A DNA stretch of 64,000 nucleotides from Geoalkalibacter halelectricus (lineage in GTDB: Bacteria; Desulfobacterota; Desulfuromonadia; Desulfuromonadales; Geoalkalibacteraceae), in contig NZ_CP092109.1 of assembly GCF_025263685.1 (NCBI RefSeq), positions 310,001 through 374,000 on the forward strand, in the 5' to 3' direction. Under the pieces are notes generated by a model. It made no database searches and was not told the DNA's origin. It worked only from the letters and a program-made list of their open reading frames with translations. Numbering within the stretch: position 1 is the stretch's first letter; each line of letters begins with the position of its first letter. Below, one piece after another: positions 8,777-9,094 of the stretch. Position numbers and translations under genes: made by a program.

Positions 8777-8880
8777 GACGTTTCTTGCTCCTTGTTCACG
8801 GTGGATTGGTGCGCCGTGCGATCTGAGCTCCCCAGGCGGCATCGCCATTGAGTCGCGGGAAACGGCCATCGAACGGCGCG

Positions 8881-8929
8881 AAAAATATAAGGCCCCACCC
8901 GGTCCAATCCGGATGAGGCCCCTTTGCCT
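8881..8929 (-). terminator. nifH leader: distal intrinsic terminator with ANTAR-like hairpin
   Basis: The minus strand carries GGCCTCATCCGG (8920-8909 region), a 6-base loop and CCGGGTGGGGCC, then TTATATTTTT ending near 8881. Its 5' arm overlaps the hairpin AGGC-(AAAGGG)-GCCT (8929-8916), whose loop has A1 and G4. It lies about 105 bases before the nifH start. Confidence 0.8.
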
Positions 8930-8978
8930 GCTGCGGCTCCGCCGTGGCGCCGCATTCGTTTCAGTTGTCGGTGTCCAT

Positions 8979-9028
8979 AAAAAAAGCCCACACGAGATGC
9001 AACCATCTCCGCGCGGGCTCCCTTGCCT
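8979..9028 (-). terminator. nifH leader: proximal intrinsic terminator overlapping ANTAR hairpin P2
   Basis: Minus-strand AGCCC...GAGATG pairs with CATCTC...GGGCT around a GTTG loop (9019-8985), followed by seven T (8985-8979). This is a strong terminator placed inside the leader. The 5' base is shared with hairpin AGGC-(AAGGGA)-GCCC (9028-9015), loop A1/G4, so the two folds exclude each other. Confidence 0.85.
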
Positions 9029-9059
9029 ACATTCGTGACCGGTGACACATCCTCGTGTC
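9015..9059 (-). promoter_or_regulatory. ANTAR two-hairpin RNA element in the nifH leader
   Basis: P1 is GACAC-(GAGGAT)-GTGTC (9059-9044) and P2 is AGGC-(AAGGGA)-GCCC (9028-9015), 15 bases apart on the minus strand. P2 has the A1/G4 loop; the P1 loop has G4 but G instead of A at position 1. Layout matches the nifB leader element at 3195-3235. Confidence 0.7.
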
Positions 9060-9078
9060 CGCCGATGTTCTCTCTTAA

Positions 9079-9094
9079 AGCAGGGGTCGTGCCA
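9079..9094 (-). promoter_or_regulatory. Sigma-54 promoter of nifHDK
   Basis: The minus strand reads TGGCACGACCCCTGCT: GG and GC doublets ten bases apart, -24 box perfect, -12 box CTGCT for TTGCW. Predicted transcription start is near 9068, giving a leader of about 290 bases. No TGT-N10-ACA NifA site was found between this promoter and the upstream gene. Confidence 0.85.

Follow-up and report, generated by a model that had tools for sequence, protein, structure and literature searches.

Paired candidate ANTAR attenuators and a further conserved element in the nifH leader of Geoalkalibacter halelectricus

The nitrogenase genes nifH, nifD and nifK of Geoalkalibacter halelectricus (genome size 4.13 Mb, one contig) lie on the minus strand, starting at position 8776 of the 64,000-nucleotide stretch of DNA analyzed here (the window). 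The nifH coding sequence (7898..8776, minus strand, from its translation; ATG at 8776), which has a match in 69 of the 121 genomes of the order, follows a leader running from 9094 to 8777, and the question raised by this leader is whether it controls nifHDK after transcription has started and, if so, through which protein. An earlier note on this DNA had proposed post-initiation control shared by nifH and nifB and implied that such control was new. Our comparison of leader sequences makes it highly probable that the nifH leader comprises two ANTAR-controlled transcription attenuators in series, and that the same regulator serves nifB and a third operon as well. A precedent exists in Pelobacter carbinolicus, a member of the same order as the window organism. 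Ramesh et al. 2012 (PMC3369931) reported ANTAR targets with two hairpins at three P. carbinolicus transcription units required for nitrogenase, an ANTAR nitrogenase regulon, so that the implied novelty falls away; the accessible part of that paper does not describe the doubling of the modules, the relaxation of the P1 loop, the pentaloop, the element E3 or the base-level leader detail presented here. The relaxed P1 rule, the module 2 P1 pentaloop and E3 are the additions to known ANTAR control of nif genes.

Hairpins and terminators in the nifH and nifB leaders

In the nifH leader, from 9094 down to 8777, a promoter is followed by modules 1 and 2, each with the terminator of the same number, and then by a rod-like element (E3) and the ribosome site. 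The sigma-54 (-24/-12) promoter, TGGCACGACCCCTGCT (9094-9079, minus strand), was identified by sequence, and most relatives' leaders have a similar match in a similar position. Module 1 opens with the P1 hairpin GACAC-GAGGAT-GTGTC (9059-9044), whose loop carries G at positions 1 and 4 (G1, G4) and which covaries across 40 leaders. It continues with the P2 hairpin AGGC-AAGGGA-GCCC (9028-9015; A1, G4), which is kept in relatives, and ends in an intrinsic terminator predicted by folding (8979..9018; stem 9018-8986, -23.1 kcal/mol) with a U7 tract. Module 2 has a P1-type hairpin, GCGGCGCC-ACGGC-GGAGCCGC (8953-8933), arranged as GCGGC-g-CC-ACGGC-GG-a-GCCGC, with a pentaloop and one internal mismatch; the P2 hairpin AGGC-AAAGGG-GCCT (8929-8916; A1, G4), supported by alignment of relatives; and a terminator (8881..8920; stem 8920-8891, -23.3 kcal/mol) whose stem covaries and whose U tract, UUAUAUUUUU, is interrupted. 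In both modules, all on the minus strand, the 3' arm of P2 is also the 5' arm of the terminator (9028-9015 with 9018-8986; 8929-8916 with 8920-8891). The promoter, P1, two P2-terminator overlaps and U7 described in the earlier note are thus all present on the minus strand, and the module 2 P1 pentaloop (8953-8933) and the conserved rod (8811-8879) are features beyond it. Downstream, the gap between nifH and nifD (7815-7890) contains two opposed, nearly complementary stretches (AGGGGCGCACCGATGTGCGCCC and GGGCGCACGTCGGTGCGCCCCT) that form a repeat-like hairpin.

The nifB gene (2217..3086, minus strand; an open reading frame whose homologs in relatives lie 3' of the same module) is preceded on the same strand by a sigma-54 promoter identified by sequence, TGGCACGGGCGATGCA (3266-3251), and by two units. 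Module 1 (3169..3235) comprises P1 GGCAC-AAGGCT-GTGTC (3235-3220), P2 AGGC-AACGAA-GCCC (3208-3195) and a terminator (3198-3169). Module 2 (3114..3152) has the P2-type hairpin AGGC-AAGGGC-GCTT (3152-3139) overlapping a terminator (3150-3114, -29.3 kcal/mol), and no clear P1 for it is recognizable in the nifB leader (3266-3087); the AGC-AARGGC-GCT form of P2 also occurs in other nifB leaders. The two leaders had been described as sharing one plan, which holds for the promoter and the two P2-terminator units and fails for the P1 of nifB module 2. A1 and G4 are present, as claimed, in all four P2 loops of the two leaders (AAGGGA, AAAGGG, AACGAA and AAGGGC).

Recurrence and covariation across the order

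We assembled 69 leaders, namely 68 nifH leaders from nifH-bearing genomes of the order Desulfuromonadales and the window's nifB leader. The P2-plus-terminator design is present in 66 of the 69 and doubled in 41. The mean number of such modules per leader is 1.55, against 0.0027 in dinucleotide shuffles, a comparison that measures recurrence and is not blind, since the P2 pattern was picked after inspection of the sequences. None of 4140 shuffles had two modules, and the antisense strand gave one module in 5 of the 69 leaders. Leaders of three alternative-nitrogenase-like nifH genes had no modules. Absence of the motif from close relatives, which the earlier note had named as evidence that would count against it, was looked for, and nearly all relatives retain the motif.

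The module 1 P1 stem covaries strongly: among 40 aligned leaders, four of six pairs vary on both sides, 56 cells show both-side changes compared with 17 in shuffles, the covariation score was matched by 0 of 500 shuffles, and slid controls all fall far below the true register. Next to the loop, two pairs never vary, and the third is either C-G or U-A. P2 stems are almost invariant, so covariation neither adds to nor removes support for P2. A hexaloop P1 hairpin with a stem of at least four pairs is found in 52 of 60 first modules. Searched without any letter constraint, its loop has G4 in 45 of the 52 and a purine at position 1 in every case (G in 30, A in 22). The proposed rule of A1 and G4 therefore describes P2 in both letters and P1 in G4 only, position 1 of P1 being A or G (G in the window's nifH module 1). 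In the EutV system, changes of A1 lowered induction (PMC3369931), and the EutV-RNA structure has G4 as the sole base-specific contact and leaves A1 uncontacted (PMC8934654), which offers a reason for P1 to tolerate either purine. The P1-P2 linker is mostly 5-15 nt across leaders (15 nt for the first module of nifH, 11 nt for that of nifB), whereas linkers in the EutV system (E. faecalis eut) are 5-12 nt. A linker of 14 nt impaired the EutV response (PMC3369931), so the nifH linker lies at, or past, the upper end of that system's range.

Whether both modules respond to an ANTAR protein is a separate matter, and one alternative is that ANTAR controls module 1 only, module 2 being either a terminator that is unregulated or regulated in some other way, or a duplication relic with a defunct P1. 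The second-module P1 is not a hexaloop but a pentaloop with a covarying closing pair (C-G in 30 and A-U in 8 of 38 leaders), and Met172 of EutV has been proposed to exclude small loops (PMC8934654); the lack of a clear P1 in nifB module 2 and the single module of sister-order leaders point in the same direction. Yet the P1 and terminator stems of module 2 both covary in these 38 leaders, with 8 of 12 terminator pairs varying on both sides, and the P1 loop, five bases of mostly A-N-G-R-N form, has A17 and G19 invariant in all of them. Most of the order also keeps module 2 with its P2 loop (A1 in 47 of 48, plus G4, letters 1 and 4 being partly imposed by the search pattern), and nifH would be blocked by an unrescued terminator 2. 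We consider control of module 1 alone unlikely. Our preferred reading of two serial locks also has against it the G1 of the window's first P1 loop and the interrupted U tract of terminator 2. Given the pentaloop and the lack of an evident P1 in nifB module 2, the second lock may respond differently to the ANTAR protein, or not at all.

In sister orders of the same class, nifH and nifB leaders carry one module and no E3, so the doubling looks like a lineage-specific elaboration of this order. Multiple use of attenuators is itself already known: PMC3369931 reports at least 13 ANTAR attenuators in six nitrogen transcription units, several per unit, in Desulfotomaculum acetoxidans, a distant lineage with other genes.

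The ANTAR regulator, its probable sites and a proposed mechanism

A genome-wide search identified one ANTAR protein, the product of 25788..26351 (minus strand), 17 kb from the nifH leader. This GnfR-like receiver-ANTAR response regulator of 187 amino acids (Pfam PF00072 and PF03861) matches EutV (6WSH, E 1.6e-35) and also 1S8N, a putative antiterminator. GnfR of Geobacter sulfurreducens, an ANTAR response regulator, reportedly was found by Ueki and Lovley in 2010 to act by antitermination on nif genes. GSU2822 is listed as nitrogen fixation response regulator gnfR (PMC7962754), and the GnfK/GnfR work (Ueki and Lovley 2010, NAR gkq652) is cited in PMC8164766. The window's regulator retains EutV residues R142, K143, K147, K149, E160, Y164, M172 and R175 and is changed at R168, N173 and R177; the residues that hold G4 (R142, K149, E160 and Y164) and the M172 plug are thus kept. 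With EutV/EutW of Enterococcus faecalis (PMC3369931; PMC8934654), the window shares a receiver-ANTAR protein, a P1-linker-P2 array overlapping a terminator and the G4 contact residues, whereas that system differs in operon and signal, and the window has sigma-54 promoters, serial modules, A or G at P1 position 1 and a pentaloop in the second P1.

Ten nucleotides after the ANTAR gene lies a gene for DRAT, dinitrogenase reductase ADP-ribosyltransferase (24977..25777; Pfam PF07357, E 3.7e-110), which overlaps by a few bases a gene for DRAG, the ADP-ribosylglycohydrolase (24081..24980; Pfam PF03747, E 9.4e-69), both on the minus strand. DRAT and DRAG turn nitrogenase reductase off and on. The head-to-tail arrangement ANTAR-DRAT-DRAG (24081-26351) suggests one operon that would link antitermination to the reversible ADP-ribosylation of nitrogenase reductase.

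R1, a covariance model trained on nifH leaders alone, recovered just three sites in this genome at E <= 0.05: nifB, through its module 1 (E 2.6e-6), nifH, and C1:3560969 (E 1e-3). The third site has P1 GACAC-AAAGAC-GTGTC, P2 AGGC-AAAGCA-GCCC and one terminator, and the genes 3' of it encode products beginning MMKATWEK and MAKVIFWEKPGC. This attenuator (L132, G000:C1:3558700-3561300) precedes a conserved 83-aa gene (beginning MMKATWEKVFEY) and then a gene beginning MAKVIFWEKPGCKGN, which we take to be of the nitrogenase-associated, ArsC-like type; no strong -24/-12 match was found near it. By translation, R1 targets in relatives are nifB, homocitrate-synthase-like (nifV), ammonium transporter and MAKVIFWEKPGC-type genes. 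In a genus-mate (L134, G037:C2:197000-199700), a single-terminator ANTAR module lies before a gene for a large chemotaxis-like/sensor protein, an unusual target.

The distribution of ANTAR genes follows that of nifH and of the modules. Within the 121 genomes of the order, an ANTAR gene is present in 66 of 69 with nifH and in 25 of 52 without it (Fisher p 1e-9); the three module-bearing nifH+ genomes in which none was found (G057, G067 and G075) are all fragmented assemblies. Genomes with R1 sites number 67, and of these 62 have nifH and 61 an ANTAR gene. Among 200 genomes of the class, ANTAR genes occur in 73 of the 74 that carry an R1 site and in 108 of the 126 that lack one. These data bear on the objection that ordinary terminators and chance small stems produce a coincidental likeness to ANTAR targets and that sigma-54 activators alone control nif. 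The sigma-54 promoters are indeed there, and the P2 stems are short and too invariant to covary. Coincidence would nevertheless have to produce an architecture shared by 66 of 69 leaders and by almost no shuffle, the covarying P1 stems, the independent recovery of nifB and a third nif-associated operon, and the phyletic link with ANTAR genes, all in the face of a published precedent (PMC3369931); we regard it as extremely improbable. The post-initiation control of nifH and nifB that had been proposed thus gains strong support from the sole ANTAR gene, the P1 and terminator covariation, the recovery of nifB and the third site by R1, and the co-occurrence of nifH with ANTAR genes.

From the leader anatomy and the EutV system we infer the following mechanism. 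Sigma-54 RNA polymerase would start at the -24/-12 promoter and by default stop at terminator 1, with escapees stopping at terminator 2. Under a shortage of fixed nitrogen, a dimer of the phosphorylated receiver-ANTAR regulator (25788-26351) would bind P1, the recruiting hairpin, and then P2. Folding of P2 would capture the 5' arm of the terminator, allowing polymerase to read on into nifHDK, and the same events would be repeated at module 2. The same regulator would act at nifB and at the third operon, with its nitrogenase-associated-type gene. We speculate that two serial locks reduce leak and sharpen the on/off ratio for a costly enzyme.

A conserved rod between terminator 2 and nifH

The stretch from terminator 2 to the ribosome site contains E3 (8811..8879, minus strand; core 8853-8835), a conserved long rod with the tip TC-AATGGC-GA followed by CCGCC. 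Its signature, TC-AANGRN-GATGCCGC, occurs in 45 of 68 nifH leaders. When the search was anchored on GATGCCGC alone, the preceding TCAA and loop G4 were each present in 45 of 45, with a purine at position 5 and no constraint at positions 3 and 6. The flanking sequences pair into long helices that vary from species to species, and own flanks on average pair more strongly than exchanged ones: the mean is -22.5 kcal/mol for own flanks and -13.5 for between-species swaps, with fewer than 5% of swaps pairing equally well in 33 of 46 species. The inner stem, CATC/GATG, is nearly invariant, so covariation gives no support there; the window's genus retains two or three of its pairs, and in the window itself this stem is weak (ACTC/GATG) and folding predicts an alternative GGCG/CGCC tip.

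E3 had no credible match in Rfam 15 when 20 leaders and the window leader were searched at gathering and permissive thresholds. Across the window, Rfam identified 6S RNA alone (RF00013, 54932-55116, plus strand, 50.8 bits), and the leaders gave only chance matches. We rejected E3 as a CsrA site, as its loops have no constant GGA; as a third attenuator, as a U tract is absent 3' of it; and as a widespread element, as pattern matches outside nifH leaders look like background. A longer E3 pattern, run against 84,980 genomes, gave nifH-linked matches in Desulfuromonadales records only. E3 is thus confined to nifH leaders and, as far as searched, to the order. In four nifH leaders of one family (f16; L041, L042, L059 and L066), another conserved stretch replaces E3 in the interval between terminator and nifH, reading GCGGGACGGTC..ATCC..CGTCC..AGGGTTACGCCGGCAG..CCGCCCCGC or close variants.

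The C-G-closed E3 hexaloop, AANGRN, has the same pattern as the module 1 P2 loop. PMC8934654 showed that the minimal ANTAR target is a single hexaloop, which makes E3 a good candidate for a single-hexaloop ANTAR site. We tentatively suggest that the regulator, once it has brought polymerase beyond both terminators, may also bind E3 (8811-8879), as a third AANGRN hexaloop presented on a rod within the mature 5' leader of nifH, and there control the stability or translation of the nifH mRNA. We lean modestly toward E3 being a separate post-transcriptional device unrelated to ANTAR, such as an mRNA stabilizer, a site for a small RNA or another protein, or a metabolite-binding RNA. Such a device would fit the conserved CCGCC beside the hairpin, which is foreign to the ANTAR motif, the length of a rod far exceeding known ANTAR hairpins, and the several families that have modules and lack E3; it would leave as a coincidence the P2-type AANGRN hexaloop of all 45 leaders. 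If E3 is an ANTAR site, one protein would act on one message at two levels. E3 allows a direct test of a single hexaloop as a natural ANTAR target, and it is in either case an undescribed element of nifH leaders.

For ANTAR recognition more generally, the leaders point to a sharper rule, in which G4 is essential and position 1 of P1 need only be a purine, in agreement with the EutV-RNA structure. Across the order, ANTAR attenuators, frequently as a serial pair, very probably govern nitrogenase expression once transcription has begun.
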